This document shows positions 34,498 through 51,447 of a DNA stretch of 60,985 bases, in pieces. The notes under the pieces were generated by a model. The model was not told where the DNA came from, searched no databases, and saw nothing but the letters and a program-made list of their open reading frames with translations. Both the position numbers and the translations under genes were made by a program. Numbering within the stretch: position 1 is the first letter of the stretch; every line of letters starts with the position of its first letter. The stretch is from Bacteroidales bacterium (GTDB lineage: Bacteria > Bacteroidota > Bacteroidia > Bacteroidales > Muribaculaceae): the NCBI GenBank assembly GCA_030531495.1, contig JAUNNJ010000005.1:1-60985 (forward strand). The letters run 5' to 3'.

Positions 34498-34630
34498 CTC
34501 ACCTTGCCGAGCTCATTCTCACTGGGCGAGAATGAGGGAGTGTTGGCAAGGTTCGCTGTTCGCGGCGCCAGCTTCGCTGACACACCGCTACTCATCTTGC
34601 CGAGTTCATTCTCACTGGGCGAGAATGAGG
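34498..34630. repeat. Pair of 40-bp direct repeats, each with a palindromic core
   Basis: 34498-34537 and 34591-34630 are 38/40 identical. Each contains CTCATTCTC or TTCATTCTC, ACTGGGC, then GAGAATGAG, a 9-bp hairpin. The second copy overlaps the last codons (L-I-L-A-Q-stop) of the dockerin gene that ends at 34612, so the first copy looks like a displaced duplicate of that gene's end. The hairpin may also act as a transcription terminator. Confidence 0.8.
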
Positions 34631-37044
34631 TTGATGAGGGCGGTGACGTCGCTCACGTTGATGGTGCCGTCGGCGTTGATGTCGCTGCGTTCAAATGGGA
34701 AGTCGGCTGTACCGAGAATCTTGTTGATGAGGGCTGTGGCGTCGCTCACGTTCACTATTCCATCGGCATTAACATCGCCTATAAGCGCTTGCTTGCTGTA
34801 GTGGGCATAGAATGTTTTTATGTCAATAGTTTGAGCACCTGTGGTGGCAGTGGTTTTGTTGGGCACGAAGCGTATTTCCTGTATGTAGACAGGGTAGGTG
34901 TTGAGGCTTTTAATGCCGCCAATCTGGTCCATGTCTACCTTGATAGTGTATTCCTTGCCAGCCTCGAAACTATTGTTGCCTTCAAATTTTTGATAGTTGG
35001 CAGAGGTGATGTAGAGGTTGCGTACATCGATTTGGATGTAGTCGAGAGGTTCAGAACTGACGAAGGTGAGACCGATTTCATCAGGCAGGCTGTAGAAGGT
35101 GACGTCTTTCAAGAGTTTAATATAAGGGGCACGGGTGGAGCTGTAGGTGTAGTTCACCAATCCGTTTTCGCTGACAGAAAGATTGCTTGCGCCAGAGCCC
35201 TTGAGGGTCCATCCGTCCCACGACTGATATAGATAGGTTTCGGGTGAAATTTCAACCGAAACAGAGTCGGTGTCAAGAAATTCGCCGATTTTACAAGTGA
35301 TGAGTGTCTTGCCATTTTTCAAACCACGGATTTTGCCGTTTTCCACCACTGCAATGGTTGGGTCTTCAACGGTCCACTCCAGATTTTCCGCTTCATAATA
35401 GTAGGTTTGTGCATTTACGGTGGCAGTCACTTCGAGAGGCCAAGCCTGGTCGTCGACTGTGATGACCGGCTTGAGCGAAATGGCAGGTTGAGCATACATG
35501 GTGGTGATGTTGAGCGATGCAGTGATGCCATTATAGTTGGCTGTGAGTGTGCCGGTGAGCACATTTCCTGCCACTGTGAGGTCTTGACCTTCGGCGGTAC
35601 CGAGCGAAGCGTCGCATGAAAGTGTGAAGCCTTGTAGGTCTTCATTAATCACATCGCCATACTTATTGTAGGCAATGATTTGAGGGTGGTAGGAAGAATA
35701 GATGGGCAGACGAAGGGCTGCGTCGGCGAATTGGATAGATGCCACTTCATTGTCGGCGGGTGCGATGGATTCAAGCAACCAACCAGTGGCCACTGCGCGT
35801 GGAGTGCCTTCGGTGGTCTTGTTGATGATAGCGCCATTCACAAGCATTTCTGCCGAGCCACCTGCGTCGTAGTTCACTACTTCAGAGATGTCGGGGAATA
35901 GACTCTTGAGGATTTGGCACATCACCTCGGTGCTACATCCAGAAGAAAGGCCATATTTAGGGCTTTGCGACTTGTCAATTACAATCATATAGAGCTTTTT
36001 GCCATCGAAACTGCAACCGTAGGCAGTGCGAGAATACACTTGCGAATTGTAGGTTTCGTCGTAGTTGCGACCGGTGAGTTCGCCATTGTGCATCACAGGT
36101 GCGTTGCCCTCCACGAGATTTTCAATCCATGGCGAAATTTTCTGCTTGTCGGGTTCGTTGGTGGTCCAGCCTTGGTTCACGACGATTACATCGCCTTCCT
36201 GGTGCACACGCATGGCTGTTTTCATAGAGGCGGTGGCAGTGATGCAGGCATCGAAGCTGCCCAGCGTCTGGCGGTCGGCATCGGTAACGATTTTTTTGAT
36301 AACGAAAGTCATAGGCTTATTCACAGCCCAACTGCTACCTTCTGCAAGCTCAAGGTAATAGTTGTCGGCATTGTTTGTGCCGGTGGTGTTGTTTGCAGTC
36401 CAGTTGGTTTCAAATTCGCGCGTTCTGCCAAAATACTCATTCCAGAGGCAGAGCTCGTTGGCCAAGTTGCGTTTGTTGATCTTATTGATAGCCAGCGGAG
36501 CATTAAGGCGGTCGCTGCCCACTGTTGCTGCCCAAGTGAAATGGCCGAAAATGAGATTCTTATCGTGGTCGATGGCAGCGATGGCAGTGCGAGAGGGACC
36601 GCCATCCCATGTGTCGTTCACATTGTTAGTATTCACAATCACGGTGTCGTTGCGCACCACACCTCCGAGTGGCGAGCCGAGCATATAGTTGCTCTGTGCG
36701 CCCTGGTTGGCCACGCACCAGAAGTTGGCATTACATCCTGCTAGCACACGTTTCGATGCCGTAGTTTGGCGTTTTGCGGCAGTGACAAGTGCTTCCGTCT
36801 TTCCGAGTAGGTTTTGTCCTTGAGTGGTCTCCACGCGGTTGTAAGGGTTGTTCATATCTGCCTCAAGTAGATACACATTGAGTGGATAATCCGGAATTCG
36901 GATGATGGTATTGACGATGCCAGGGCCAATTTGGCGACGGAAAAGTGTGTCGGCTGCATATTGCTTAGAGCCGATGGTAATTACTGCCATTGACGAGGTG
37001 GTGCAAATGACAGCCAAAGTCAAAACGAGTAATAATTTTCTCAT
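34612..37044 (-). CDS. Secreted phosphodiester-glycosidase-family protein with C-terminal dockerin pair
   Basis: 810 residues. Signal peptide (KLLLVLTLAVICTTSSMA), then a phosphodiester glycosidase (NAGPA/DUF2233) domain over about 40-430 with GCNANFWCV, ITATASMKTAMRV and the hallmark VVNYDAGGSAEMLVNG. Homologues release N-acetylglucosamine from phosphodiesters; the substrate here is unknown. Beta-rich Big2-like regions follow. Residues 758-810 are a dockerin-type pair: GDVNADGIVNVSDATALINK and [21 protein letters not shown], both with complete calcium loops. There is no T9SS sorting domain after it, so it could be released or held through the dockerin. Confidence 0.88.
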   Translation of the reverse strand: MRKLLLVLTLAVICTTSSMAVITIGSKQYAADTLFRRQIGPGIVNTIIRIPDYPLNVYLLEADMNNPYNRVETTQGQNLLGKTEALVTAAKRQTTASKRVLAGCNANFWCVANQGAQSNYMLGSPLGGVVRNDTVIVNTNNVNDTWDGGPSRTAIAAIDHDKNLIFGHFTWAATVGSDRLNAPLAINKINKRNLANELCLWNEYFGRTREFETNWTANNTTGTNNADNYYLELAEGSSWAVNKPMTFVIKKIVTDADRQTLGSFDACITATASMKTAMRVHQEGDVIVVNQGWTTNEPDKQKISPWIENLVEGNAPVMHNGELTGRNYDETYNSQVYSRTAYGCSFDGKKLYMIVIDKSQSPKYGLSSGCSTEVMCQILKSLFPDISEVVNYDAGGSAEMLVNGAIINKTTEGTPRAVATGWLLESIAPADNEVASIQFADAALRLPIYSSYHPQIIAYNKYGDVINEDLQGFTLSCDASLGTAEGQDLTVAGNVLTGTLTANYNGITASLNITTMYAQPAISLKPVITVDDQAWPLEVTATVNAQTYYYEAENLEWTVEDPTIAVVENGKIRGLKNGKTLITCKIGEFLDTDSVSVEISPETYLYQSWDGWTLKGSGASNLSVSENGLVNYTYSSTRAPYIKLLKDVTFYSLPDEIGLTFVSSEPLDYIQIDVRNLYITSANYQKFEGNNSFEAGKEYTIKVDMDQIGGIKSLNTYPVYIQEIRFVPNKTTATTGAQTIDIKTFYAHYSKQALIGDVNADGIVNVSDATALINKILGTADFPFERSDINADGTINVSDVTALINLILAQ

Positions 37045-37084
37045 TAGTGATGTCGGTTAAATGATGGATAATTAATTAGCACCT

Positions 37085-37092
37085 CAAAAATA
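37085..37092 (-). promoter_or_regulatory. -7 box TATTTTTG of the phosphodiester-glycosidase gene
   Basis: Minus-strand TAnnTTTG match 40 bases before the start, in the divergent intergenic region. Confidence 0.6.
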
Positions 37093-37115
37093 ACTAATTA
37101 TTAGCAAAAAAACAC

Positions 37116-37123
37116 TATTTTTG
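37116..37123 (+). promoter_or_regulatory. -7 box TATTTTTG of the beta-propeller lipoprotein gene
   Basis: Plus-strand TAnnTTTG match 27 bases before the ATG at 37151; 23 bases from the opposing box. Confidence 0.6.
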
Positions 37124-37150
37124 TGCCGAAAAAATAAATAGAGGAATTAA

Positions 37151-38725
37151 ATGAAGAAATTATTACTGCTCAGTGCATTGGTTTCAATCACTGGTATGTA
37201 TTCTTGTAAGTCGGGTACAGGTGAAGCATCTGTAAAAGATTCGGATACTGTAGTGATTGATACAGTGGCATTGCCTGATACTTCCTACACGTCGGTGGAG
37301 CAACTCACATGGAATGTGATAGTGACAGACAGCACCGTGGACGTCAGCTTGAAGGTGTTTAATGACCCCTATCTGGAAACACCCTCGCAACTTGCATTCA
37401 GGGGCAACCAACTCCGTAATGCAGATTTCGGCGGAAAAGTGAAAGGACGTCCAACAAAAATTGTGCAAGACTGGGCATTTGAAACCGATGTGGATATGAG
37501 TCCCACAAAATTAGGTGTGTGGGGTGGCGGCACAGGCTGGACCAGTCAGCCTCTATATGTGGAATGGCCAAGCGATGTGGTAAAGAAATTTAAGAGCACA
37601 CCATCTGCCAAACTCACTTCGGATTTTTCATCAAAAGAAATAGTGGTGGCTTCGCTTTGCGGTAAGTTGCACTTTATCAATTTCGAAAATGGTAAGGCCT
37701 CTCGCGAAGCACTGGATATGGGCAATCCTGTGAAGGGCACTCCAACCATCGACCCTCGCTTTAATGGCCTTGTGTATGCTGGTCATGCAGTGCAAGCCCA
37801 TGGCGATGTTTGCCAGAATGTAATCGACCTTTTCAAGCATGATGTGGTGATGAGAGTTCCTGGTCTTGACCCTCAGCTCACCCGCTCATGGCCAGGCTGC
37901 GACTCTTCGCCGCTCTATGTTGATGGCTTTGTGATTTGGCCAAGTGAAAACGGCCTTGTGTATAAATATGACGTGCGTGGCGACTCGGTGAAGGTGCACA
38001 GCAAACTGAGATACACCCGCGCTGGCGCTATGGGAGGTGCTGGTGTGGAATCGAGTATATGCGTATATAAGAACTACGGCTACTTTGGTGACAACCACGG
38101 CAATATCCTTTGCGTGAATTTGAACAATATGAAGCCTGTGTGGTATTACGATAACCACGACGATATCGATGCCACCACTGTTTGTGAGGTGGTGAATGGC
38201 AAGCCTTATGTGTATGTGGCTTCGGAAGTAGACCACCAAGGCAATTCGGGCTTCTGCTACATGGCAAAACTCGATGGCTTGACCGGGCAGGAAGTGTGGG
38301 CAATTCAGGTGCCTTGCACCAAGTTGAATATGGGTACCAAACACTTCGATGGCGGCATGTATAGCACTCCGCTGTTGGGTGGCGGCAACTGTAGCGACTT
38401 GATGTTTTCTACACTTGCCAACGATGGAGTGAACGGTATGGGCAATTTCTATGCGTTTGAAAAGCGTACGGGCAAGATTGTGTACAAAACTCCGCTGAAG
38501 CATTACTCTTGGTCATCGCCAGTGGGTTTCTACAACGAAAAGAACGAATTGTTCATCCTCGTTGGCGACACCTATGGCACTATTTACTTGATTGAAGGCA
38601 AAACTGGCCGTATCATTTGCGATGAAAAGATTGGCGACAACTTTGAATCATCGCCAGTGGCTGTGGGCAATTCAATTGTGGTAGGCTCTCGCGGCAAATA
38701 TATCTATAAAGTGCATATAGAATAA
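37151..38725 (+). CDS. PQQ-like beta-propeller lipoprotein
   Basis: 524 residues. Lipoprotein signal ITGMYSC (Cys at about residue 19), then repeated beta-propeller blades with alternating G-x-L-x-x-x-D and W/Y motifs, such as GCDSSPLYVDGFVIWPSENG, GYFGDNHGNILCVN and TYGTIYLIEGKTGR. This resembles the PQQ/BamB-like WD fold without BamB-specific features. Function is unknown; it may be a protein-protein or sugar-binding platform in the outer membrane. It is followed 15 bases later by an alpha/beta hydrolase gene, so the two are likely co-transcribed. Confidence 0.8.
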   Translation: MKKLLLLSALVSITGMYSCKSGTGEASVKDSDTVVIDTVALPDTSYTSVEQLTWNVIVTDSTVDVSLKVFNDPYLETPSQLAFRGNQLRNADFGGKVKGRPTKIVQDWAFETDVDMSPTKLGVWGGGTGWTSQPLYVEWPSDVVKKFKSTPSAKLTSDFSSKEIVVASLCGKLHFINFENGKASREALDMGNPVKGTPTIDPRFNGLVYAGHAVQAHGDVCQNVIDLFKHDVVMRVPGLDPQLTRSWPGCDSSPLYVDGFVIWPSENGLVYKYDVRGDSVKVHSKLRYTRAGAMGGAGVESSICVYKNYGYFGDNHGNILCVNLNNMKPVWYYDNHDDIDATTVCEVVNGKPYVYVASEVDHQGNSGFCYMAKLDGLTGQEVWAIQVPCTKLNMGTKHFDGGMYSTPLLGGGNCSDLMFSTLANDGVNGMGNFYAFEKRTGKIVYKTPLKHYSWSSPVGFYNEKNELFILVGDTYGTIYLIEGKTGRIICDEKIGDNFESSPVAVGNSIVVGSRGKYIYKVHIE

Positions 38726-38740
38726 TTCTCAATAAAAGAA

Positions 38741-39700
38741 ATGATGCGAACAAAAGTAAAAAAGAGAATATCTATCACCGTTGGTGTGGTGTTGCTGCTG
38801 GTGGTTGTGTCGCTGGTGGGAGGTGGCCTATATTTGCTTGATTTTGCCTTGAGCCCTAAGCATCGCACTGTAGACGAATCGCTGGAGCGCCTCTATAAGC
38901 ACAACGCTTATTTGCGCCCGTGGGTCGACAGCCTGAAACATGCAGGGGCGATGCACGACACCATTGTGGAGATTAATGGCAATAAATTAAATGCCATGTA
39001 TGTGTGTGCTCCACAGCCGTCAAATCGCGTGGCGGTGCTTGTGCATGGCTATAAAGACTGCAACGCTATGATGATGCACGTGGGCTATATCTACTATCAC
39101 TTGGGCTATAATCTGCTGTTGCCCGACCTGTATGCGCACGGAAAGAGCGAGGGCGACCACATCAGAATGGGGTGGCTCGACCGACTGGATGTGATGGCAT
39201 GGATGGACATTGCCAATGAGAAATTCCGTGGCGATTCAGCATCGACACAGATGGTGGTGCATGGTATCTCAATGGGCGCGGCTACAGCAATGTGCGTATC
39301 GGGCGAGCACCAAAAACCTTATGTGAAATGCTTTGTGGAAGATTGTGGCTACACCAGTGTGCACGATGAATTTGTTTATGAATTGGACGACATGTTCGGT
39401 TTGCCACCTTTCCCGCTGCTCAATGTGGCAAGCTGGATGTGCAAAATGAAATATGGTTGGGATTTTGAGGAAGCGTCACCACTTGAGCAGGTGAAGAAAT
39501 CGCATCTGCCGATGCTGGTGATTCATGGCGACAACGACGACTTTGTACCCACATGGATGGCGAAGCCTATCTACGATGCCAAGCCACAGCCCAAGCAACT
39601 ATATATGGCAAAGGGTAGCGAACATGCCCGCTCGCTTAGTGACCATCGTGAAGAATACACCAATGTGGTGAAGCAATTCACCGAACAATACATTCGGTGA
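38741..39700 (+). CDS. Membrane-anchored alpha/beta hydrolase
   Basis: 319 residues with one N-terminal membrane segment (ISITVGVVLLLVVVSLVGGG) and an alpha/beta hydrolase fold. The catalytic triad is visible as the nucleophile Ser in VHGISMGAATA, Asp in VIHGDNDDFVP and His in GSEHARS. The oxyanion-hole segment VLVHGYKDCN is also present. The substrate (ester, peptide or acyl chain) cannot be told. Probably co-transcribed with the upstream lipoprotein; a bidirectional terminator follows. Confidence 0.88.
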   Translation: MMRTKVKKRISITVGVVLLLVVVSLVGGGLYLLDFALSPKHRTVDESLERLYKHNAYLRPWVDSLKHAGAMHDTIVEINGNKLNAMYVCAPQPSNRVAVLVHGYKDCNAMMMHVGYIYYHLGYNLLLPDLYAHGKSEGDHIRMGWLDRLDVMAWMDIANEKFRGDSASTQMVVHGISMGAATAMCVSGEHQKPYVKCFVEDCGYTSVHDEFVYELDDMFGLPPFPLLNVASWMCKMKYGWDFEEASPLEQVKKSHLPMLVIHGDNDDFVPTWMAKPIYDAKPQPKQLYMAKGSEHARSLSDHREEYTNVVKQFTEQYIR

Positions 39701-39760
39701 TTGAGCCGTCGAATCGATGGGGTAAGTGAACCCAATCCGGAAAAATGTGATAAAATAAAG

Positions 39761-39814: not shown

Positions 39815-40693
39815 TTATTTCTTCTTTGATGTTGACTTTTTAGTGGTTGTCTTTTTTGTTGTTGTGGTAGTGGTGGTTGTCTTCTTGCCAGCGTTGATGT
39901 AAGAAGCGTATTCCTTTTCGATGGCAGGGAGTTCCTTTTCAATGTCGGCAATGCGTTTTGCATCGCTTGGGTGATCGCTCATGAATTCTGGTGTTTTTGC
40001 TGTGCTTGATGAAGCCATCTTTTGCCAGAAATTGAGCGCTGTGCGAGGATTGTAGCCAGCGAGCGACATCAGCACGAGTCCCATCTTGTCGGCTTCGCTC
40101 TCATGCTTGCGAGAGAATGGAAGCATCACGCCATAGTTGGCACCAAGACCGTAGACCTGGTTAACGATTTGCTGAGTGGCTGCACTCTTGCCTTGGGTGA
40201 AGATGCCTACGGCCTGTGCTCCATATTGAGCGAGCACTTGTTGACTCATGCGCTCATTGCTGTGCTTAGCCACTGCGTGAGCCACTTCATGGCCGAGAAC
40301 TACAGCGAGTTCGTCGTCGCTTGCCACGAGTTTCATCAGTCCTTCATATACCACGATTTTACCACCAGGCATGCAGAAAGCATTGATTTCGTTGTTTTTC
40401 ACAAGGTTGAATTCCCATTGAAAATTTTGAACTTCAGCTTCCAACCCGTTTGCTTTGAGGTATGCTTCGGTAGCGGCAGCGAGTTTTTTACCTACGCGGG
40501 TCACTTGTTCGCTTTGTGCCTTTTCGCCAGAAATGGTGGCTGAACTCATATAACTTTTATACTGAGTGAGGCTTGATTGAAGCACTTCGCTGTCAGATAC
40601 GAGGTTGAGTTGCTTTCGGCCGGTGATGGGCACTGAACCACAACTGTTGAGCAGCATTGCTGCTCCAGCGATGAGAAGTAATGATTTTTTCAT
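39815..40693 (-). CDS. M48 family zinc metallopeptidase lipoprotein
   Basis: 292 residues. Lipoprotein signal LIAGAAMLLNSC, then an M48 (BepA/HtpX-like) peptidase domain with the zinc motif VVLGHEVAHAVAKH and the distal ligand region RKHESEADKMG. It probably acts on outer-membrane proteins or assembly intermediates in the periplasm. The last 25 residues are a Thr/Lys tract (runs of T, then KKTTTKKSTSKKK), encoded by repetitive ACA/ACC codons; this tail is not part of the family. It is the last gene of the 44.7-39.8 kb minus-strand group. Confidence 0.93.
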   Translation of the reverse strand: MKKSLLLIAGAAMLLNSCGSVPITGRKQLNLVSDSEVLQSSLTQYKSYMSSATISGEKAQSEQVTRVGKKLAAATEAYLKANGLEAEVQNFQWEFNLVKNNEINAFCMPGGKIVVYEGLMKLVASDDELAVVLGHEVAHAVAKHSNERMSQQVLAQYGAQAVGIFTQGKSAATQQIVNQVYGLGANYGVMLPFSRKHESEADKMGLVLMSLAGYNPRTALNFWQKMASSSTAKTPEFMSDHPSDAKRIADIEKELPAIEKEYASYINAGKKTTTTTTTTKKTTTKKSTSKKK

Positions 40694-40717
40694 TTCGTGA
40701 TACTTATTTTTATGTGT

Positions 40718-41824
40718 TTAATGTGTTTCAACGCGTTTTGTTGCAGGCTTGGTGGCATTACGCTTGTCTACAGCCTTCACCACGCTTTCAGCTAAAGTGA
40801 TGAACGAACGCCCAGATACACTGTTCTGGAGTGTGACAGGCACACCGTCGTCGCCACCGCGGCAAATACTTGCCACCAATGGCACCTGGCCGAGAAGTTC
40901 CACGCCGAGTTTTTCTGCAAGATTTTTGCCGCCGTCTTTACCGAAAATAAAGTATTTTTCATCGGGGTGTGAAGCGGGTGTAAACCACGACATGTTTTCA
41001 ACGATACCAAGCACTGGCACATTCACCTGTTCGCCCAAGAACATACTCACGCCCTTGCGTGCATCGGCCAACGCCACTTCCTGTGGAGTGGTGACTACGA
41101 TAGCGCCAGTGATGGCAAGTGTTTGCACCAAGGTGAGGTGAATATCGCTTGTGCCGGGTGGCATGTCAATGATGAAGTAGTCGAGGTCGCCCCAAGCGGC
41201 ATCGGTGATGAGTTGCTTCAGTGCATTGCTTGCCATGGCACCACGCCAAAGCACAGCCTTTTCCTTATCAACGACAAAACCGATAGAGAGCAATTTCACA
41301 CCGTGTTTTTCCAGAGGAAGAATGCGGTTTTTGCCATCGATTTCTTGAATATAGAGTTGCTCGTCTTCTACACCAAACATCTTAGGCACAGATGGGCCGA
41401 AAATATCGGCATCGAGCAGACCTACTTTGTAGCCTAGTTGAGCAAGCGACACGGCAAGATTGCTTGCCACCGTAGATTTGCCTACACCGCCTTTGCCCGA
41501 TGAAACGCCAATGATGTTTTTCACACCTGGCAGGGGTTCGTCTTCCTTCTTCTTTTCTGGTGTAGGTTGCACAGTGGTCACGCTGATGTTGCCTTTGATG
41601 TCCACTTCTTCGCTAATGTGGGTGTTGATTGCCACTTCAGCAGCGCGCACAATCGACTTGATGAAAGGGTCGGTTGAGCGTTGGAAAATCAGCGAGAATG
41701 TCACTTTGTTGCCGTCAATACGTATGTCGTCGGCCACCATGCCCATTTCCACGATGTTCTTTCCTGTGCCAGGATAGCGCACTGTGCTGAGGGCATCAAG
41801 TATGAGTTTTGGATATAATGTCAT
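40718..41824 (-). CDS. Mrp/NBP35 family Fe-S cluster carrier ATPase
   Basis: 368 residues. An N-terminal MIP18-like domain (residues 1-90, KLILDALSTVRYPGTGKNIV) is fused to a deviant-Walker P-loop ATPase with GVSSGKGGVGKSTVASNLA, LLDADIFGPSVP and YFIIDMPPGTSDIHLTL. The CxxC cluster motif of typical Mrp proteins is not obvious, but family length and domain order fit ApbC/Mrp, which carries Fe-S clusters to target enzymes. The gene lies between trmB (13-base gap) and the M48 peptidase (24-base gap) and is likely co-transcribed with both. Confidence 0.93.
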   Translation of the reverse strand: MTLYPKLILDALSTVRYPGTGKNIVEMGMVADDIRIDGNKVTFSLIFQRSTDPFIKSIVRAAEVAINTHISEEVDIKGNISVTTVQPTPEKKKEDEPLPGVKNIIGVSSGKGGVGKSTVASNLAVSLAQLGYKVGLLDADIFGPSVPKMFGVEDEQLYIQEIDGKNRILPLEKHGVKLLSIGFVVDKEKAVLWRGAMASNALKQLITDAAWGDLDYFIIDMPPGTSDIHLTLVQTLAITGAIVVTTPQEVALADARKGVSMFLGEQVNVPVLGIVENMSWFTPASHPDEKYFIFGKDGGKNLAEKLGVELLGQVPLVASICRGGDDGVPVTLQNSVSGRSFITLAESVVKAVDKRNATKPATKRVETH

Positions 41825-41837
41825 TTTATTGAGTGAT

Positions 41838-42608
41838 TTAATCTTCGTCTTTATTCAAGAGTTGAGGCATCTGTATGTAGCCACGGTTGTAGCTGCGGTA
41901 GGTGTCCATCTCAATGTCGATTTCTGGCTCTTTGAGCTCACCCTCGTGTGGAAGGTGGAACTTCAGATATTTGATGGTGAGGCCACGTTCAAGCCATTGC
42001 ATCTCGTAGTGAGTTTTTATTTCAAGAATTTCATCGGCTTTTCCGCTGTGGTAGAGGTCGTCGGTATTGACTTCCACAGGGAGCTTGTTGAGCTTAATCA
42101 ATTCGCTGGTGTAAGTGTAGAGGAACGGGCTGTCGCTCTTCAGATGCACCAATCCGCCGTCTTTCAAAATCTTGCGATAGTTGTTCAGGAAGCGGGTAGA
42201 GGTGAGTCGTTTGTTCACCTTCTTCATCTGAGGGTCGGGGAATGTAATCCAGATTTCAGAGATTTCGCCCGGAGCAAACATACGGTCGATGAGTTCGATG
42301 CAGGTGCGGAGGAATGCCACATTTTTCAATCCTTCCTGTTCCACCATTTTAGCTCCGGTCCACATTCGTGCCCCTTTGATATCTACACCGATGTAGTTCT
42401 TTTCAGGGAATCGTTTACCGAGCCCTACTGCATATTCGCCCTTGCCGCATCCGAGTTCGAGCACGATGGGGGCGTCGTTGTGAAAATATTCGCTATTCCA
42501 TTTGCCTCTCATGGGGCAACACTCGTCGCTCAGTACCGAGAAAGGGAACTGAAAGACGCATGAAAATGCCTCCATGTCGGCAAATTTCTTCAGTTTGTTT
42601 TTACCCAT
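41838..42608 (-). CDS. trmB: tRNA (guanine-N7-)-methyltransferase
   Basis: 256 residues; forms m7G at position 46 of tRNA using SAM. Signatures: motif [30 protein letters not shown], and the TrmB-specific [16 protein letters not shown]. An N-terminal extension of about 35 residues and a C-terminal tail are usual for Bacteroidota members. The ATG shares one base with the stop codon of the upstream BspA-like gene (TAATG), which implies co-transcription and possibly translational coupling. Confidence 0.95.
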
Positions 42609-44659
42609 TATTTCAAAATCAGTTTATGGCTCTTTCCACCAATGCGCACGATGTATACGCCTTGGCCAGAAGTTTCATATTCGTTATGTCCAGCCTCTAC
42701 TGCGAGGTTGATGCTTGTGCCATTGATGCCAACCAATTGTGCCACAGTGGCTTCTTCGCTTTCGATTACTACTGTGCCACCTCTGCTATACACTTTCGCA
42801 TTGTTTTTACTCATGTCGTTCACGCCAGTGGTGTTGCCAACGAGTGCTGTGGTGTTGGCTGCGAAGTATGTTTCGTTGTTGGCAGTAGCGAGAATGGTGT
42901 GTGTCACTTCGATAGCAGCATTGGTGTCGAGCGAGCGGGTAGCCTTCACCACAAGAGTGATGATTGCGCCTTCATTGCCACTTAATTCGGTATTTTGCAT
43001 ATTGTAGCCGAGGAAGCGAACAGTGCCATCGGCAAGCGTTGCGCTTTCAAAGTTGTGGCTAGCAGCACGGCTGCCCTTGCTGATGCTTACAAGCTCAAGG
43101 CCTTCAGGTAGTTGAATGTCGAATTGCAGAGCTGTGTATGCCTGACTGTTGTTGAGATTAACATCTACTGTGCGAGTTTCGCCAGGAGCAAGACTGAAAC
43201 TGTCGATATTCACGTTGTCGTCGGTGTTCACTACCCATTCGGTATACATCTCAGTGATGTTTCCGCTAAGAATCATATTGATAAGAGCTGTTACGTCCGA
43301 AACATTGATGATGCCATCGGTAGCGCAGTCGGCAGCCTCGAAATTAAATGGAACGGGGTCATTTCCAAGAATGTAGTTGATGATGGTGGTAACATCCGAC
43401 ACATTCACCAGTCCGTCCATATTCGCATCGCCGAGCAATACGCGTTTCATAACCTTGAATTCTTTCCACTGACTGGCAGCTGTATAATCTTGAACAGGAG
43501 CAATGAGTTCCACATCCTTCTGAGCGACACCTGCCCAAACCTCGTAGCCAAGCGTCGGCACATTGGTTGGAACAGCAGTGATTCGTGTGAGTCCTGTCAT
43601 GCCAGCCATTGCTTTTGTACCGATGAAGGTGACGTTGGCGGGCACGGTGAGTTGATTAATTTCGGAGAGGTTGTAGAGCGCATATTCACCGATTCTTGTG
43701 ATATTGTCGCCCCAAATGTTGCTGTTGGAAACATTTGTGCCCGCAGCCAAATATGCTCCCACCTTTGTGACTTTGGTAGGGAGAACAAGGTTGGTAACAT
43801 TTTTTGCGTAGTAGAATGCACCTTCGCCAACTTCCTGTACTGAAGCAGGGAGTGATATTTCTGCAACAGGTGTGCCTGCGTAGGCCCAAGCGCCCACAGT
43901 GTTGAGGCTCTTGAAGTTTGCGAGGTTGCCATCGCTCATTTGGGTAGCAATAAATGCTTCATTGCCGATGCATGCCAATTGTGTGGCGCTGCTCCATTGG
44001 AGTGTAGACAGGTTCTTGCATCCGGCAAATGCCGCATTGCCGATAGCTGTCACGCCTGAGCCAAATTTCACGTTGGTGAGTTTTGCATCGGCGAAGAATG
44101 CCTTAGCACCGATATTTCCAGCTTCAATAGTTACTGAAGTGAGATTTTCGCAACGAGAATATGCGCCTTCACCGATTTTCTTGACAGTGGCAGGAAGTGA
44201 GAGTGTGGCGAAACCTGTAGCGCTGAATGCATAGCCGCTGATACTGTCGAGAGATGCTGGAAGCGCCATTTCAGTGATGCCTTCGCATCCTGCAAATGCT
44301 GCGTGGCCGATGATTTTCAAATTCGATGGCAGCACCACCTTTGTGAGAGGCTTGCCAAAGAATGAAGTTTGCGGAATTTCATCGGCTTGGTATGCGGTCT
44401 GTTGTCCAAACACAGGCTCGTCGTCTTTTTCGTATGCGAGGATTTGGGCTCCACTGAGGTCGATATTTGTTAGGTTATCTAATTTGTCGGCAATGTATTT
44501 AAAGTCGCGAACATCAAGAGTACCTGTTATTGTTAGTTCTGTCACTTTTGTGTCGGAAAGACGAGTTGAAAGTTGGCCTGCAACATTATCTATTACCACT
44601 GCTTGCATTTGTAATGCAGCCAAAGCGATTGCTGCCAGAAGTAATGTGAATTTACGCAT
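42608..44659 (-). CDS. BspA-like leucine-rich-repeat protein with dockerin pair, cohesin-like domain and T9SS sorting domain
   Basis: 683 residues. Signal peptide to about 20; BspA-type (LRR_5) leucine-rich repeats from about 60 to 400 ([21 protein letters not shown], in parts); a dockerin pair at about 408-466 ([20 protein letters not shown] and [18 protein letters not shown]; the second loop has Ala in place of Asn at its third position); a cohesin-like beta-sandwich at about 485-608 ([43 protein letters not shown]); and a T9SS type A sorting domain at the end ([19 protein letters not shown]). The protein is therefore expected on the cell surface. Tandem paralogue of the next gene. The cohesin call is by pattern only. 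Confidence 0.88.
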
Positions 44660-44830: not shown

Positions 44831-46921
44831 TTAATTTTTGATTTGCACTTTGAATGATTTACCAGCAATGCGAACCACGTAGATGCCTGGTTCAACAGAA
44901 GAATAGGTGTTGCGGCCAGCTTCCACTACAAGGTCGGTAGCAATACCGTTCATTGCTACCAATTGAGCGATACCTGCACTTTCGGAATCAATGAAGAGCG
45001 AATTGCCTTCAGTGAATACACGAACTTGGCAGATGTTAGCATCGTCGATACCAGTGGCGTTGCCCACCATTGCGGTAGTGCCCTGGGCAACAACTCGCTT
45101 GAGCTCGGTGTTTACGAAAATCACATTCTTGATGAGCATTTGGGCATCAGCGGCAAGTTGCTCGTCGGCTTTCACTTTGAGGCGAAGCACTGCGCCATCG
45201 TTGCCATTGAAAGTGTTGTTGCTCATAGAGTAACCCACTACGCGGCTCTTACCGTCTTCGCGGTTGAGAGTGGCAAATGCGTGTGATGATGAACGCTCAG
45301 TGTTGGATGTTTCCTCAATCAAGGTCAACCCCATTGGGAGCACCACGTCGAATTGCATGGCCACATAAGAGTCGGTGTTGTTGAGTGCCACTTCCACTTC
45401 TTTTGTTTCGCCTGGGCGAACACTGAAAGCCGAAATTGAAAGGTGGTCGGTGGTGGTGATGTCGGAAGATGTGCGTGGAGCACGGCGAATTATGATTTCT
45501 TCACCATTGAGCACCATGTTGATGAGCATTGTTACATCGGTCACATCGATTGTGCCATTGCCGTCGATGTCGGCCACTTCAATGTTGAATGGATTTGGGT
45601 CGTCGCCGAGAACATAACTAATAAGGGTAGTGACATCGGAAACGTCAACGCATCCGTCGTTGTTCACATCGCCCATGAGGTAGTTCTTAAGAATATGGAA
45701 TTCCTTCCATTGTGCTGCTTGTTCGAAATCTGGAACTAAGCCCATATTGTCGAGGTCGAGAGCCACGTTTGGTTGGTCAACACCAGCCCAAACATCTTCG
45801 CCCAATTCGGGGACTGCATTTTGAGTGTAGGCTTTGATGGTTTTGAGGCCAGTCATTCCAGCCATTGCCTTTGTGCCGATATAAGAAACGCCTTCAGGTA
45901 TCACGAAGCGCTGCATGCCACAGGCATTGTAGAACGAATAATCGCCCATGCTTTCTGCGCCTGCTGGAATGATGCTGTCGGTTGTCAATGTCTCTGCACC
46001 TGCAAAAGCGAACGCAGGAACCGTGGTGAGATTTTCTGGAAGGTTGGCTGTTTCGAGTTGTGACGCGTAGAAGAATGCGCCCTCGCCAAGTGCGGTTACG
46101 CTTGATGGCAACTTTACGTTGCTAACCTGTGTTTTTGCTAACACCCATCCGTCAACAGTCGCAAGCGATGCTTGAGAAGAAAGGTCGAGGGCCGAAAGAC
46201 TTGTGTAAGCAAATGCTTCGGCACCGATAGTTGCCACGTTGGTGCCTTCAAAATTGACAGCTGTCAATGCCGAGCAAGATTTGAAAGCGCCTTCGCCAAT
46301 GGCTTTAACATCGCCACTGAGAGTGAGGGCAGAGAGAGCCGCATCGGCATAGAATGCATCTTTACCAATTGTAGCGCTTGCCACTGTGGCTGAAGTGAGA
46401 TTCCCACAGCGAGAGAATGCGCCTTCGCCCACTACTTTCACTGTGGCAGGCAAACTGATGGTGGTGATGCCCGTGCTGCTGAAAGCATAGGAACTGATGC
46501 TGTCGAGAGATGCAGGAAGGGTTATTTCGGTGAGACCTTCACAGCCAGCGAATGCGGCAAAACCAATTGACTTGAGCGATGCGGGAAGCGCTACGCTTGT
46601 GAGAGGCTTGCCAAAGAAACTGGTGCAAGGAATAGAGGCTGCAGCAAAATTGTTTTCGCCACCTAAAAGTGCAGTTTCCTCATCGCTATAGGCTTCTATG
46701 GTTGCTTCAGATAAATCTATTTCACTCAGAGCATTGAGGTTGTCGGCAATAAACATGAAGTCGCGCGCATCCATTGCGCCTGTCACTTTCAGTGAGGTGA
46801 TGGAGTGGTCGGTTACAAGCGATGCCAATTGTCCAGGTTGTGACTCAACAGTTACAGCCCACATCGATAGGGTTGTAAGTGCTGAAATTGCTAATGTTAT
46901 CGTTTTTCGCATTATATTCAT
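44831..46921 (-). CDS. BspA-like leucine-rich-repeat protein with dockerin pair, cohesin-like domain and T9SS sorting domain (paralogue)
   Basis: 696 residues with the same order as its neighbour: signal peptide (TITLAISALTTLSMWA), BspA-type repeats to about 405, dockerin pair at about 416-474 (GDVNNDGCVDVSDVTTLISY and DGNGTIDVTDVTMLINMVL, both loops complete), a cohesin-like sandwich at about 490-625 (FSVRPGETKEVEVAL, AMQFDVVLPMGLTLI, DGAVLRLKVKA), and a type A sorting domain ending GIYVVRIAGKSFKVQIKN. The -7 box is only 9 bases upstream of the first ATG (46921), so the third in-frame codon group, ATG at 46912, is a better start. It arose by tandem duplication with the 42608-44659 gene. Confidence 0.88.
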   Translation of the reverse strand: MNIMRKTITLAISALTTLSMWAVTVESQPGQLASLVTDHSITSLKVTGAMDARDFMFIADNLNALSEIDLSEATIEAYSDEETALLGGENNFAAASIPCTSFFGKPLTSVALPASLKSIGFAAFAGCEGLTEITLPASLDSISSYAFSSTGITTISLPATVKVVGEGAFSRCGNLTSATVASATIGKDAFYADAALSALTLSGDVKAIGEGAFKSCSALTAVNFEGTNVATIGAEAFAYTSLSALDLSSQASLATVDGWVLAKTQVSNVKLPSSVTALGEGAFFYASQLETANLPENLTTVPAFAFAGAETLTTDSIIPAGAESMGDYSFYNACGMQRFVIPEGVSYIGTKAMAGMTGLKTIKAYTQNAVPELGEDVWAGVDQPNVALDLDNMGLVPDFEQAAQWKEFHILKNYLMGDVNNDGCVDVSDVTTLISYVLGDDPNPFNIEVADIDGNGTIDVTDVTMLINMVLNGEEIIIRRAPRTSSDITTTDHLSISAFSVRPGETKEVEVALNNTDSYVAMQFDVVLPMGLTLIEETSNTERSSSHAFATLNREDGKSRVVGYSMSNNTFNGNDGAVLRLKVKADEQLAADAQMLIKNVIFVNTELKRVVAQGTTAMVGNATGIDDANICQVRVFTEGNSLFIDSESAGIAQLVAMNGIATDLVVEAGRNTYSSVEPGIYVVRIAGKSFKVQIKN

Positions 46922-46930
46922 GATTTATTG

Positions 46931-46938
46931 CAAAAATA
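46931..46938 (-). promoter_or_regulatory. -7 box TATTTTTG close to the BspA-like paralogue start
   Basis: Minus-strand TAnnTTTG match whose predicted start of transcription falls at about 46924, giving an almost leaderless message or favouring the ATG at 46912. Confidence 0.55.
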
Positions 46939-47022
46939 GCATTTTTTTTTGATATATAAGCATAAGGTTATACTAATTTCGCTTCTTGCTTTTTCTTTTG
47001 TTTGAGTCTGCGATAAAAGGGC

Positions 47023-47064
47023 ATAAAAAAAGCAATTTCCCTCAAATTGTGGGGGAAACTGCTT
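47023..47064 (-). terminator. Terminator of rplU-rpmA
   Basis: Imperfect stem AGCAATTTCCC / GGGGGAAACTGCT around an A/T-rich loop; on the minus strand it ends in a T7 tract. Confidence 0.8.
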
Positions 47065-47114
47065 GTGCGATTTCGAAAGTAGCGCTAAGAATTTTGGCGC
47101 TTCTTTTTGTTGCT

Positions 47115-47381
47115 TTAGTTCTTTTCGCCTTCAGCTGCGATTACGTTGATGAAGGTGTGGCCTGCACGTTGCTTGAATTCAACGATGCCATCAACCAATG
47201 CGTAAAGAGTGTGATCCTTACCCATACCAACGTTTACGCCTGGACGGTTAACAGTACCGCGTTGACGGCGGATGATGTTACCGGCTTTAGCGAATTGACC
47301 ACCAAAAATTTTCACACCGAGTCGTTTGCTATGTGACTCGCGACCGTTCTTAGAACTACCTACACCTTTTTTATGTGCCAT
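47115..47381 (-). CDS. rpmA: 50S ribosomal protein L27
   Basis: 88 residues. The start [20 protein letters not shown] is canonical (no cleavable N-terminal extension of the Firmicutes kind), followed by LGVKIFGGQ and [10 protein letters not shown]. It sits near the peptidyl-transferase centre of the ribosome. Co-transcribed with rplU, 21 bases upstream. Confidence 0.98.
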
Positions 47382-47402
47382 AATCTGTTAAATTTTTAGG
47401 GG

Positions 47403-47720
47403 TTAAGCGATAACTTCTTTAATCACTACCTTGGTGAATTGTTGGCGATGACCGTTGAGACGGCGATAGCCTTTGCGACGTTTTTTCTTGAAAACAATCA
47501 CGTGTTCACCCTTTACGAGTTCTTCTGCAACCTCGCAAACTACTTTTGCACCTTCTACGGTTGGTGCACCTACCTTAACAGCGCCTTCAGCGTCTACAAG
47601 AAGAACCTTGTCGAACTCAACTGTTTCGCCTTTTTTCACATCAGCGATGTGGTGAACGAACAAGTACTTGCCTGCTTCGGCCTTGAACTGTTGTCCCTGA
47701 ATTTCTACAATTGCGTACAT
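47403..47720 (-). CDS. rplU: 50S ribosomal protein L21
   Basis: 105 residues: [20 protein letters not shown] at the start and the conserved [19 protein letters not shown] near the end. First gene of the rplU-rpmA operon, with a strong promoter about 87 bases upstream, leaving a leader of around 80 bases. Confidence 0.98.
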
Positions 47721-47806
47721 TTAATTAATTGTAAATCAAGTTAAACCATACGGCGGCCTGCGCACAATAAAGCGAGGCACTTAACAGAGCCTTTTGGAAA
47801 TCGACT

Positions 47807-47838
47807 GCAAAGTTACTATTTTTCAGCAATATAACAAA
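47807..47838 (-). promoter_or_regulatory. Promoter of rplU-rpmA
   Basis: Minus-strand -33 TTTG (47835-47838) and -7 TAACTTTG (47807-47814), spacing 20 bases. Confidence 0.85.
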
Positions 47839-47908
47839 TCTTTTTTAAGAAAACTTTTGCTTTTTCATTTCTTGCTACAAAGCATAACATATACGTGTAG
47901 GGTATAAT

Positions 47909-47945
47909 AAATCACCCACGGCTACTGAATGGCCGTGGGTGATTT
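47909..47945. terminator. Strong palindrome, probable bidirectional terminator
   Basis: Perfect 14-bp stem AAATCACCCACGGC (47909-47922) with GCCGTGGGTGATTT (47932-47945). It lies 149 bases downstream of the 48094-51411 gene and may end its transcript. Confidence 0.75.
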
Positions 47946-48093
47946 TGCTATAGATAGATCAGATTTTAGAAGTAAGGCATTAGAAGCCTGATTGGTCTGA
48001 TAGGACTGATAGGTCAGATGACCAAGACATCCCTCTTAACTTCCGTCAAAAAGACACTCGTCTTAACTTCCTAACTTCTTAACTTCTGATAAA

Positions 48094-51000
48094 TTACATT
48101 GCGAGGAGGATGTTGATGAGTGCGGTCACGTCGGAAACGTTCACTGTGCCGTTGCCGTCGATGTCGCAAATGCTGTCGCTGTAAGAAACCAAGCCCAGGA
48201 GCTTGTTGATGAGTGCTGATACGTCGGATACGTTCACCACACCGTTGCCGTCCACGTCGCCAGTAGCAGCGAAGATGTCGACGGTGATCTTGCTTGTTGA
48301 GCCAGCCAATGTGCTTGAGAGCTTCAAGTAAGAGCGGCCCTTACCGGTTGTATAGGTTGAAGTTGGCCTGTGGAATGCCTTAGATGTAGGGCTGAAGTAG
48401 AAACCTACGCTTTCGTTGTAGATGTTAGGACTTGTTCCGTCGCCCGTACCGATAAGGAGGTTTTGTGGAGTTGAAGGAGTTCCGCTTGGGCGTTTCAACT
48501 TGTGGATAGTGTTCTTCTTGAAGCCTTCAATGAGCAGACCGGTGTTGGCAGGGGTCTGGTTCACCATTTGTGCATAAGCCTTCTGTTCGCTCTTCTGGTA
48601 GCTGTAGATGGTGTAGGCTGTGAGGCCGGTAGCGTTCCAGTCAACAGGGTGGTTGACAGCGAAGTTGTAAACAGTTTCGTCGCCAGAGGTTACGAAGTAA
48701 CCATTCAGTCGGTCGATTGGCGCCTTGCTATCGGTAGAGAATTGAGTCCAGTTGGTAATGCTCTTTTGGTAGTCAGGTACTGAATACCAAGACACATAGC
48801 AGGTGAAGTCGGCTGCATCTGCACCGTAGAACTGACCGCCCCATGATAAACTGTTTTCAGGAATATTGATGACGAGCTCGTGGAGGTTCGGACATGATAC
48901 GAATGCGTATCTGCCAATATAAGAGCAAGTAGATGGCACGGTGAATGTGCCGCTGAGTCCAGATTTCATGAAAGCATATGCGCCGATGCGTTCAAGATAC
49001 TTCATGCTTGAAATACTGATGCTTGTTCTGTTGGTAGCGTCTACGAGAAGGCTGTCGCCGATTTGGGTCATCAAATATTTTTTGCTGCCGCCGTTGGTCA
49101 TGTCGGTTTCATAATTAGATGCAGCAAATTGGCCTGATTGTGTTTTGATGTAAGGGTGGTAAACATATTTCGCCTTACCAGCATATGTGGTTCCGTCTTT
49201 GGTGACAGAAGAATTGCTAACCACGGTCATGCGGTAAGCAGTGCCGCCGTGATTGTTGTTGTAAGCGAAGTCGTATGCACCAGCGCTTACGGTGAGCGCT
49301 TTCCACTTAGAGTTGTTCTTGTAGTGGCCTACGTAGTTTGTAGGCACATAGAGTTTGCAAGATGAAGGAATGTTGGTCAAATCCCAGTTTGTGTAATCTG
49401 ATAGCCAACCTGTGTTGACAATCAACTCTTCGAGGTGGTTGTTCTTTGCAATCGCTGCAAGGCCCATGCTGCCAAAAGAAGAAGGGAGGAGGATACGCTT
49501 CATAGAGTTGTCGTAGAACGCATAATTTCCGAGATACTTGAACCCGTAAGGGAAGATGAGGTCGTTGGCGATGCGACATCCGTTGAATGCATCTTTTGAC
49601 ACAACTCTCAAACATGAGTTGAGGTTGAGTGTCTTGATGTTGGTGTGATTCTTGAATGCAGCTTCACCAATAGTGTCGACATTCGCACCGAGATAGATGG
49701 TGAATTCGCCACCGAAATTCGCACCGTCGGATGCATAAGGGCCTACGCTGGTAACGGCGTAGTTCTTGTTGTTGAAGGTGATATGTGCGGGAATATAGAG
49801 TGTGGCAGCATCTGGTACGCTGGGCACATTCACGAGGCTTGCGCGACCGGCATAGCTCGTGCCGTTGATTGTTTCGGCGGCTGCGCTGGTGATGCTGTAG
49901 AAGCAGAGCACATTGTAGGAAGTTGATAGGATACTCGATACCTCTAGATCGTGTCCACCTCTTTTAATGTTGCTCCATGTTTTCCATCCTTCAGCAGCCT
50001 TGTAAGCATCCACTGCACTTTGTGGCACGTAGAGATTCGTACGCTTGCATTCTGAGAATGAAGAAGCGACCATTGCGAGTGGTGTGTTGTTGTTGACGTA
50101 CAAGTTTGCCAACTTGGTACATCCCGAGAAAGCTTGTTTATCCATATAGGCTACAGAACTTGGAATTCTTGCATCGGTCACTTCTGAGCATCCAGAAAAT
50201 GCTTGCATGTTAATTGTAGTCACGCCATAAGGAATATAAATATTCAATAATTTCTTGCAATTTTCAAAAGCGTAATTACCGATGGTTTTTGTGTCGGGGT
50301 GGATAGATGTATAAGTTGCACCTTCTGGGCAGCGTAAGAGATAGGTTTTAGCTTTGTTGTAAAATGAACCGTTGTATGAACTGTAGTTTTTATTGTTTGT
50401 GTCAACGCTGATGTTTGTCAATGCCGAACAATGGTCTACGAAATAAGCACTACATAAAGTGACTGATGCCGGAATGTTGATGACGGTGAGACCAGTACAG
50501 CCATAGAATGAAGAACTTGAAATGGTGGTCAAGCCTTCGTTGAGTGAGACAGATGTCAATGAAGTGCAGTTTTTGAAAGCGCATACACCAATGCTGGTGA
50601 GTTTAGTACAACCTGTAATGTTTACACTCTTGAGCGTTGTGTTGTCGAGCATAGCGCTGTCGGCAATGGCCACAAAGTTGTAGGTGTAAGGACCGAAAGA
50701 GTAGGTAGCACCGTTCTTCTTGTATGCACCGTCGGTTACAGCTGAAGCAGTAGAACTGAAACCGGTCATGGTCATTTCGCCATTTGAGCTATATGTTGGC
50801 GCCTTTGTCACCACGAGGTAAGCACCATCCGAGCATAAAACGTCGCGAGCAGAAGAGTGCTTCTTGATAGTGGCGAAGTTCTTAAATGCTGCTTTTTTCT
50901 TGAATTGTGCCACAGCGTCGGGGTTGGTCATGGTCACGTAGAGTGTCATGCCAGAGTTGGTTGGGAACGCGTCGCTGTTGATGATGTTGGCACCATCGTT

Positions 51001-51411
51001 AGGGTCGGTTGTGAGGGCATAGCGCACAGTTGTGAGCTTTGTACAGCCAACAAACACTTTAGAATAGATGTATCGGCAAGAACTTGGAATATTCGCAAAG
51101 GTGATATTCGCACAGTTGTAGAATGCCGAAGCGTTCAAGTCGGTAATACCATAGTTGATGGTGACACCGGTAAGGTTCGACTGGCTTGCGAAAGCTGAGT
51201 TGGCAACCGACTTTACCAGGTGGGTTTTGCTGTTGTAGCTTACACTGGTAGGGATAGTGAGGCTCAGACTACTCTTGGTCTTGCCATTAGCGCTCAACCC
51301 CGTCACGGTAACTTCACCGTGGGCCGATGATGTGGGGTCTTGGGTAACCTTGTAGGCAAGGTCGCCAATTTCAAAGGTCACACCCACCGTGGCATTAGCA
51401 GCAATAGCCAC
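48094..51411 (-). CDS. Large BspA-like leucine-rich-repeat protein with C-terminal dockerin pair; signal peptide interrupted by a stop codon
   Basis: 1105 residues from a GTG at 51411. BspA-type (LRR_5) repeats fill most of the protein (for example LTSIGVCAFKNCTSLTSVSL, in two blocks separated by LEVSSILSTSYNVLC). Residues about 1050-1105 are a dockerin pair: GDVDGNGVVNVSDVSALINK and [21 protein letters not shown], with complete calcium loops. No sorting domain follows. The frame extends upstream through SLLLISALVAIAANA, the core of a signal peptide, but an in-frame TAA at 51436-51438 separates it from the ATG-AAA-AAA at 51447. As read, the protein lacks a usable export signal; the promoter is intact. 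Confidence 0.85.
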   Translation of the reverse strand: MAIAANATVGVTFEIGDLAYKVTQDPTSSAHGEVTVTGLSANGKTKSSLSLTIPTSVSYNSKTHLVKSVANSAFASQSNLTGVTINYGITDLNASAFYNCANITFANIPSSCRYIYSKVFVGCTKLTTVRYALTTDPNDGANIINSDAFPTNSGMTLYVTMTNPDAVAQFKKKAAFKNFATIKKHSSARDVLCSDGAYLVVTKAPTYSSNGEMTMTGFSSTASAVTDGAYKKNGATYSFGPYTYNFVAIADSAMLDNTTLKSVNITGCTKLTSIGVCAFKNCTSLTSVSLNEGLTTISSSSFYGCTGLTVINIPASVTLCSAYFVDHCSALTNISVDTNNKNYSSYNGSFYNKAKTYLLRCPEGATYTSIHPDTKTIGNYAFENCKKLLNIYIPYGVTTINMQAFSGCSEVTDARIPSSVAYMDKQAFSGCTKLANLYVNNNTPLAMVASSFSECKRTNLYVPQSAVDAYKAAEGWKTWSNIKRGGHDLEVSSILSTSYNVLCFYSITSAAAETINGTSYAGRASLVNVPSVPDAATLYIPAHITFNNKNYAVTSVGPYASDGANFGGEFTIYLGANVDTIGEAAFKNHTNIKTLNLNSCLRVVSKDAFNGCRIANDLIFPYGFKYLGNYAFYDNSMKRILLPSSFGSMGLAAIAKNNHLEELIVNTGWLSDYTNWDLTNIPSSCKLYVPTNYVGHYKNNSKWKALTVSAGAYDFAYNNNHGGTAYRMTVVSNSSVTKDGTTYAGKAKYVYHPYIKTQSGQFAASNYETDMTNGGSKKYLMTQIGDSLLVDATNRTSISISSMKYLERIGAYAFMKSGLSGTFTVPSTCSYIGRYAFVSCPNLHELVINIPENSLSWGGQFYGADAADFTCYVSWYSVPDYQKSITNWTQFSTDSKAPIDRLNGYFVTSGDETVYNFAVNHPVDWNATGLTAYTIYSYQKSEQKAYAQMVNQTPANTGLLIEGFKKNTIHKLKRPSGTPSTPQNLLIGTGDGTSPNIYNESVGFYFSPTSKAFHRPTSTYTTGKGRSYLKLSSTLAGSTSKITVDIFAATGDVDGNGVVNVSDVSALINKLLGLVSYSDSICDIDGNGTVNVSDVTALINILLAM

Positions 51412-51447
51412 TAAAGCCGAAATGAGAAGTAATGATTATTTTTTCAT
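51409..51447 (-). pseudogene. Signal peptide start M-K-K-stop-S-L-L-L-I-S-A-L-V
   Basis: ATG AAA AAA TAA TCA TTA CTT CTC ATT on the minus strand. Changing one base (TAA to TTA) would give a normal signal peptide in frame with the large leucine-rich-repeat gene. Confidence 0.85.

Follow-up and report, generated by a model that had tools for sequence, protein, structure and literature searches.

The stretch of DNA analyzed here, contig JAUNNJ010000005.1 of a Muribaculaceae assembly (GCA_030531495.1; 60,985 nucleotides, hereafter the window), encodes four dockerin-bearing proteins on its reverse strand. Two of them, encoded in tandem and 46% identical when whole proteins are compared, combine a dockerin with a cohesin and a C-terminal tail resembling the type A sorting domain of the type IX secretion system (T9SS); we call these anchors A and B, and the remaining dockerin proteins clients. 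Anchor A (P0001, 683 amino acids (aa), 42608–44659) comprises a Sec signal, a leucine-rich repeat (LRR) domain of family LRR_5, a dockerin (43268–43435), a cohesin (42824–43222) and the tail (42611–42826). Anchor B (P0002, 696 aa, 44831–46921) has the same layout, with the dockerin at 45509–45673, the cohesin at 45050–45448 and the tail at 44834–45049. The initial annotation of the window had the order dockerin, sandwich domain and tail right but missed the LRR_5 domain, detected by Pfam, that opens both anchors ahead of the dockerin. The two clients of the window are a phosphodiester glycosidase (P0003, 810 aa, 34612–37044), whose suspected family membership Pfam bears out as NAGPA, with a Sec signal, a C-terminal dockerin (34621–34779) and no sorting tail, and a protein of LRR_5 repeats (P0004, 1105 aa as an open reading frame (ORF), 48094–51411) that ends in a dockerin (48103–48261). 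We propose, at a probability of roughly three in four, that these genes belong to a cell-surface docking system of a Bacteroidota genus, in which anchors exported by the T9SS would display cohesins that capture dockerin proteins.

The domain assignments differ in how directly they are reached. All four dockerins reported by the initial annotation score above the Pfam cut-off for Dockerin_1: those of anchors A and B match PF00404 with 43.2 and 48.6 bits, and those of the clients were placed by a genome-wide Dockerin_1 scan. All 12 solved structures in the PDB matched by the dockerin of anchor A are either named as dockerins or belong to cellulosomal enzymes. The beta-sandwich that follows was proposed to be cohesin-like in both anchors. 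In anchor A it matches PF00963 (Cohesin) with 44.8 bits (E 1.8e-11, cut-off 24.1) in a separate search, hmmscan of the whole protein having left it unlisted. The sandwich of anchor B has no Pfam match, PF00963 included, and its membership follows from 42% identity to cohesin A over the domain; a single-protein query of the cohesin and tail of anchor A retrieves the anchor B cohesin at E 6.2e-49. Among 31 relatives found with our cohesin profile A3, eight match Pfam cohesin at E 0.001. Against PDB sequences, a profile search gave two matches up to E 0.1, both weak (0.045 and 0.085) and both cohesin entries, and phmmer with the cohesin A region alone gave nothing up to E 1. When the predicted fold of cohesin A was ranked by VIA-align, cohesins filled rows 1–48 of 50; this ranking covers the top 1000 of Foldseek, so that families outside it may still fit, and mainly compares model residues 72–209. 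Membership of another immunoglobulin (Ig)-like family, the competing identity raised with the annotation, was not supported (DUF11 matched one of the 31 relatives; ASH and Arrestin_C stayed under the cut-off), and the outcome was the opposite, namely cohesin by Pfam, PDB profile and fold. We take the anchor sandwich, on its predicted model, to have a cohesin fold that would bind dockerins, presumably in a calcium-dependent manner.

The tails were traced through unrelated cargo. A profile built solely from the tails of family endonucleases finds tail A at the C-terminus (i-E 0.0049) and the anchor tails of relatives, down to 3.6e-7 within the genus (G122). One of the source endonuclease tails matches the curated type A model PF18962 weakly (E 3e-4, under the cut-off) and another not at all. 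Tail B is 42% identical to tail A and is matched by a tail profile whose building set includes tail B itself; taken alone it has no Pfam match. The initial annotation had given both anchors a T9SS type A sorting domain: a C-terminal tail is present in each, but it is a lineage-specific one that curated type A models leave unmatched. On sequence homology the anchor tails are akin to the tails of unrelated T9SS-type cargo, which would make the anchors T9SS cargo too. The T9SS components named for the window hold up by NCBIfam, with PorV at 27120–28301 (forward strand; NF033710, 467.5 bits) and PorU-type sortases at 51961–55443 (a second copy; NF033707, 707.3 bits) and 56792–60271 (NF033707, 940.8 bits), both on the reverse strand. 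A PorU sortase is present in 197 of 198 family genomes. Tail-profile matches number nine in the window's own genome (G000), next to 80 dockerins, 18 and 13 in two other members of the genus, and 1–88 across the 59 genomes scanned; the G000 tail count is low, not unique.

The four dockerins of the window are a small part of the set in G000 (a 2.67-Mb assembly of 144 contigs, 78% complete), where a genome-wide count returned 80 dockerin matches and three cohesins. The third cohesin is the only one of a small protein that also has a signal peptide and ends in a short tail (G000:C139, L012 410–1039, reverse strand), found by protein query and profile and unmatched by Pfam. The dockerin stands 0–4 residues from the stop in 70 of the 76 proteins outside the window, or 72 of 80 with the two window clients; the remaining eight are the two anchors, three proteins with the dockerin on the N-terminal side, one truncated at a contig end, one in which 10 residues follow the dockerin and one degraded with stops. 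By a simple rule, 69 of the 76 clients outside the window have a Sec-like signal, and the rest include truncated ORFs. Lipoprotein anchoring of clients was considered and discarded: a loose-lipobox cysteine occurs in 6 of the 69 and, by eye, falls within the hydrophobic stretch before the normal cleavage site. In three proteins the dockerin lies near the N-terminus (L052 981–2297, L053 665–2215 and L041 5941–6810); two of these are probably the GH53 and CotH proteins, judging from group tallies and sequence.

What the clients carry bears on whether this is a true cellulosome for plant cell-wall degradation. Pfam tallies at E up to 1e-5, covering 74 of the 76 clients outside the window (pieces of 98 and 105 aa were omitted), list Dockerin_1 73 times, LRR_5 19, Peptidase_M6 six, GHL10 six, CBM26 four, Endonuclease_1, alpha-amylase and NAGPA three each, Peptidase_S8 twice, and Peptidase_C10, CotH, GH30_2, GH53, GDPD, Amidase_3, Metallophos, RGI_lyase and others once each. 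LRR domains and peptidases are thus the commonest, and GH5, GH9 and GH48 are absent from these tallies. The cargo is a general exported set, not a cellulase set. Cohesin, dockerin, adaptor and scaffoldin architectures do look clostridial, and Sodaliphilus, probably the genus of this genome (see below), has been called a candidate for cellulose degradation on account of more than sixty dockerins in the available text of PMC10872696; yet the cargo makes plant-wall degradation very improbable as the purpose of the system and led us to reject the cellulosome label for G000.

One dockerin motif recurs on 78 unrelated or distantly related G000 proteins, as read from an alignment of 79 dockerin rows, made up of 78 dockerins from outside the anchors plus a cut copy of the anchor A dockerin. 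At the positions that we take to form the usual recognition pair, repeat 1 has V in 75 and S/T in 77 of the 79 rows, and repeat 2 has V in 77 and S/T in 78; compared over nine positions, the repeats share 84% identity. Elsewhere in the genus the consensus differs from genome to genome and is mostly common to both repeats, e.g. VTSADVTALYN in G156 and VDGIDLN in G095 (4–15 dockerins each), and three cohesin columns set genomes with Tyr-type dockerins apart from the rest. Across 16 genomes, the distance between dockerin sets correlates with the distance between anchor cohesins (r 0.62; partial r 0.32 given PorU, permutation p 0.0016), and divergence of the anchors' LRR domains is unrelated to that of the dockerins (partial r 0.004, p 0.48). 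The partial Mantel test is liberal on related species, and the dockerin rows may include cut anchor-dockerin copies, as one does in G000. This signal lends mild support to cohesin–dockerin pairing. Coevolution at specific positions was not borne out, as the signal in recognition columns was no stronger than in the remaining dockerin columns, and the binding face was not located.

The anchor-plus-clients pattern proposed for the window holds genome-wide and beyond this genome. A contig scan returned 17 related loci, the best from a Muribaculaceae metagenome-assembled genome (MAG) from horse faeces (98% identity). They include Candidatus Sodaliphilus aphodohippi and fimicaballi, which NCBI places in Muribaculaceae; because the tandem anchors and the flank after them recur in the aphodohippi locus, the genus of the window is probably Sodaliphilus. 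We surveyed 198 family genomes for dockerins at E up to 1e-4, counts near 30 being lower bounds. Dockerins occur in 69 of them: all 16 genomes of the genus (at least 29 each), one genome of a second genus (G001, at least 30) and 52 others (1–7). Six genomes of the genus rescanned at E up to 1e-6 gave 38, 44, 57, 63, 80 and 102 dockerins, four of the six figures being at least values. Cohesins were detected with profile A3 in 60 of the 198 genomes (57 with query A2), comprising all 16 of the genus (2–18 each) and 44 of the 182 outside it; dockerins and cohesins thus occur together in 16/16 genomes of the genus. Outside it, 53 genomes have dockerins, 44 cohesins and 31 both (Fisher p 3e-11), an association that is partly trivial, the domains often sharing one protein, and whose test ignores relatedness.

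By our own profiles, the dockerin–cohesin–tail anchor occurs in every one of the 16 genomes of the genus, frequently as two genes in tandem, and some members have larger assemblies. G060 and G135 encode a 919-aa protein of six tandem cohesins and a C-terminal dockerin, again by our profiles (for G060, Pfam at E 0.001 detects only the dockerin), and G193 has a protein with four cohesins, all detected by Pfam (E 4.6e-32), plus a dockerin. Relatives also encode small cohesin–dockerin proteins (219–249 aa) that, from their domain content, look like adaptors. No such tandem-cohesin scaffoldin is among the three cohesins of the 78%-complete G000 assembly. Since relatives rated 96–99% complete (G122, G109 and G173) have just 2–4 cohesins each, the simple, anchor-only form in G000 may be real and not merely an assembly gap.

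These distributions also bear on an explanation in which clients stay in the periplasm or leave the cell otherwise (by vesicles or lysis), dockerins serve other partners, such as each other or LRR domains, and the anchor cohesin has a structural role, paired with its own dockerin. Such an arrangement would account for the dockerin expansion in G001, where no cohesin was found with profile A3, and for gene pairs outside the genus that keep cohesins, and sometimes a dockerin, in genomes with one to three dockerins; cohesins may have a role without clients there. We nevertheless consider it unlikely, given one motif on 78 proteins, tandem-cohesin scaffoldins in the genus, the co-occurrence in each of its genomes and dockerin divergence that follows the cohesin and not the LRR domain.

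The same enzyme families end in a dockerin in some genomes and in a tail in others. In six genomes of the genus, 12 endonuclease I proteins divide into seven with a T9SS-like tail and five with a dockerin (three in G000, one each in G017 and G079); all three G000 endonucleases carry dockerins. Outside the genus, all ten closed ORFs examined in the shorter class of this enzyme end in a tail. Most loci of the longer class end before the C-terminus; three closed shorter homologues, in G020, G061 and G080, have the tail, and G001 has two proteins with a tail, one with a dockerin and one of 1242 aa with neither. Tails of endonuclease I were read by eye, and no protein among those examined has both modules. 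With the GHL10 client of G000 as query, the top match ends in a dockerin in six of six genomes of the genus (five by profile, G017 by eye), and 21 closed ORFs outside it comprise ten with a tail by profile, one by motif, six tail-like by eye, three with neither and one with a dockerin; these come from loci of the best-matching genomes, 30 out of 90 with a match, nine ORFs cut by locus ends were omitted, one of the ten profile-detected tails is a second ORF in the same locus, and the three with neither are shorter. The one GHL10 ORF outside the genus with a dockerin belongs to G042, a genome with 14 cohesins.

This exchange of C-terminal modules suggests that a dockerin can take the place of a sorting tail. 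It is what co-export on an anchor predicts, and it follows equally if clients exit otherwise and are caught outside. In the former case the dockerin would be a second-hand export tag, a sorting signal as well as a plug: clients would attach to an anchor cohesin while in the periplasm and pass out with the anchor through the type IX channel. The T9SS transports folded proteins, and most clients have a Sec-like signal, no normally placed lipobox and nothing past the dockerin. The GHL10 family, with dockerins in the genus and mostly tails outside, and the shorter class of endonuclease I agree with this explanation. It would leave some 80 clients to share three cohesins, the tail route still operates (9–18 recognized tails in three genomes of the genus; 7 of 12 endonucleases there tailed), and a module swap speaks for equivalent use of the C-terminus, not for a route; an instance of T9SS co-export was not found in the available text of the literature considered. 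We regard the export tag as conceivable but doubtful. A fuller and bolder version, in which the dockerin has largely replaced the tail as address label and a few cohesin-bearing T9SS cargo proteins ferry clients through the channel and hold them on the surface, is in our judgment about equally doubtful; it would amount to a piggyback branch of the T9SS with an exchangeable plug and, in some species, branched scaffoldins.

In the surface docking that we favor, clients would reach the periplasm by Sec, the T9SS would export the anchors, and the C-terminal tail would fix them at the surface. Anchor cohesins would then capture client dockerins with a single, species-specific specificity, so that some 80 dockerin proteins, a mix of enzymes and LRR proteins, would be displayed on the cell. 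The anchors' own dockerins might allow them to join each other or the tandem-cohesin scaffoldins of relatives. Several findings weigh against this proposal. Clients have no visible route through the outer membrane, and the 144-contig G000 assembly (78% complete) has three cohesins for 80 dockerins. The anchor tails are unmatched by PF18962 (in the own-genome scan and with tails alone) and by NCBIfam (with whole proteins), and tail B is not among the matches listed for the independent endonuclease-tail profile. The top fold match of the sandwich is a non-cellulosomal archaeal cohesin. In the coevolution analysis, the sorting tail also correlates with dockerin divergence (0.22, p 0.018), the signal is modest when dockerins of cohesin-free ORFs are used (0.25, p 0.008; 4–79 such dockerins per genome), and non-recognition dockerin columns are equally strong (0.29, p 0.0016). 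Among family genomes, G001 is an exception to pairing, as profile A3 found no cohesin in it despite at least 30 dockerins; outside the genus, 13 of the 44 cohesin genomes have no dockerin at E 1e-4, and in other genomes dockerin and cohesin share one protein.

The system can be set beside several known ones. Cellulosomes of clostridia and ruminococci (C. thermocellum, R. flavefaciens) have the cohesin fold and type I dockerin seen here, and their scaffoldins and cohesin–dockerin adaptors have apparent counterparts in relatives; by contrast, GH5, GH9 and GH48 are missing among the clients scanned, a tandem scaffoldin was not found in G000, and the anchors carry a T9SS-type tail, whereas those cellulosomes anchor by SLH or sortase. 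Bacteroidota T9SS type A cargo is similar in that the anchor tails are homologous to other family cargo tails and the enzyme families are the same, and differs in that the dockerin proteins here have no tail. Ruminococcus albus differs in being Gram-positive, in its plant-wall enzymes and in that it is not known to have a T9SS. The likeness to R. albus, as given in the available text of PMC6118326, lies in many dockerins with very few cohesins and in single-cohesin docking, the cohesin being regarded there as a probable surface anchor for isolated enzymes. The nearest precedent in the texts available is the cellulosome-like complex of Candidatus Stygibacter (Cloacimonadota; PMC8542988), also inferred from MAGs, which has C-terminal dockerins on signal-bearing enzymes including peptidases, non-cellulosic cargo, and a tandem-cohesin scaffoldin with a C-terminal surface-attachment domain, for which that paper cites a T9SS review. 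It belongs to another phylum and has one giant scaffoldin (3,755 aa) with carbohydrate-binding modules; here we find a recurring small LRR–dockerin–cohesin anchor pair, about 80 dockerin proteins, graded complexity across the genus and dockerin/tail exchange.

Because PMC8542988 proposed it for Cloacimonadota, the concept of a surface-attached cohesin scaffoldin with dockerin enzymes is not new. The accessible text of a 2026 paper (PMC12997984) reports cohesins and dockerins in 78 Bacteroidetes MAGs, calls this surprising and in need of investigation, and states that no cellulosome systems have been described outside Firmicutes; the Stygibacter proposal (2021) and a Bacteroidetes bin with tandem cohesins (2018, PMC6071333) are earlier. 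That camel-rumen bin (#136) is listed with two to four tandem cohesins and as dockerin-rich, in a text that credits species of both phyla with cellulosomes and, as far as available, contains no analysis of anchor, sorting tail or cargo. Other partial sources report 63–107 dockerins in Sodaliphilus (PMC10872696), dockerins but no cohesins in Muribaculaceae C941, with both domains in some Prevotella (PMC9863278), a two-cohesin protein in one Prevotellaceae MAG (PMC5830445) and none in a Bacteroidetes genome (PMC5831590). In the open-licence literature we found no paper joining Sodaliphilus and cohesin and, in the text available, no description of these anchors, the scaffoldins of the genus or the module exchange. 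A cellulosome-like assembly appears to exist in a Gram-negative phylum, and the present analysis provides candidates for its sockets, anchors and scaffoldins and proposes how they would be attached. Named cohesin–dockerin domain pairs are now available to test, and the exchange of tail for dockerin makes it testable whether the T9SS can export a partner protein.

Within the window, the anchor pair has a conserved flank at 39815–42608 (reverse strand), with genes for an M48 peptidase and, under what we take to be the names of the matched Pfam families, an Mrp-type P-loop NTPase and a TrmB-type methyltransferase. Of 23 related loci, a number that includes some contigs twice, 18 contain a homologue of the TrmB-type methyltransferase. 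The 1105-aa LRR protein was recognized correctly by the initial annotation as to its leucine-rich repeats and C-terminal dockerin, but its end at 51447 is an ATG separated from the ORF by an in-frame TAA, and the gene was corrected to a GTG start. This TAA lies a few codons past the ATG, in the signal peptide region (51411–51450, reverse strand), and stems either from an error in the assembly or from decay of the gene. The two diverged PorU-type sortases are separated by 1.3 kb that hold Rex and an ORF of weak similarity to fumarylacetoacetate hydrolases; at least three PorU matches occur in 13 of the 16 genomes of the genus.

Further variants were seen elsewhere. In the second dockerin expansion, that of G001, where no cohesin was found, the one dockerin read (L171 5722–8709) has a different motif, GNDVSALLEMVL. 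In four loci from other Muribaculaceae genera (L069, L080, L081 and L084), a recurrent gene pair encodes a cohesin-tail protein, to which three of these loci add a dockerin, and beside it a two-cohesin protein, in genomes with merely one to three dockerins each. The cohesin–dockerin theme extends to Prevotella, since in a Prevotella sp. from roe deer rumen (L128) a protein that combines a dockerin with a tail-like C-terminus is encoded immediately before a 2691-aa protein with an N-terminal cohesin.

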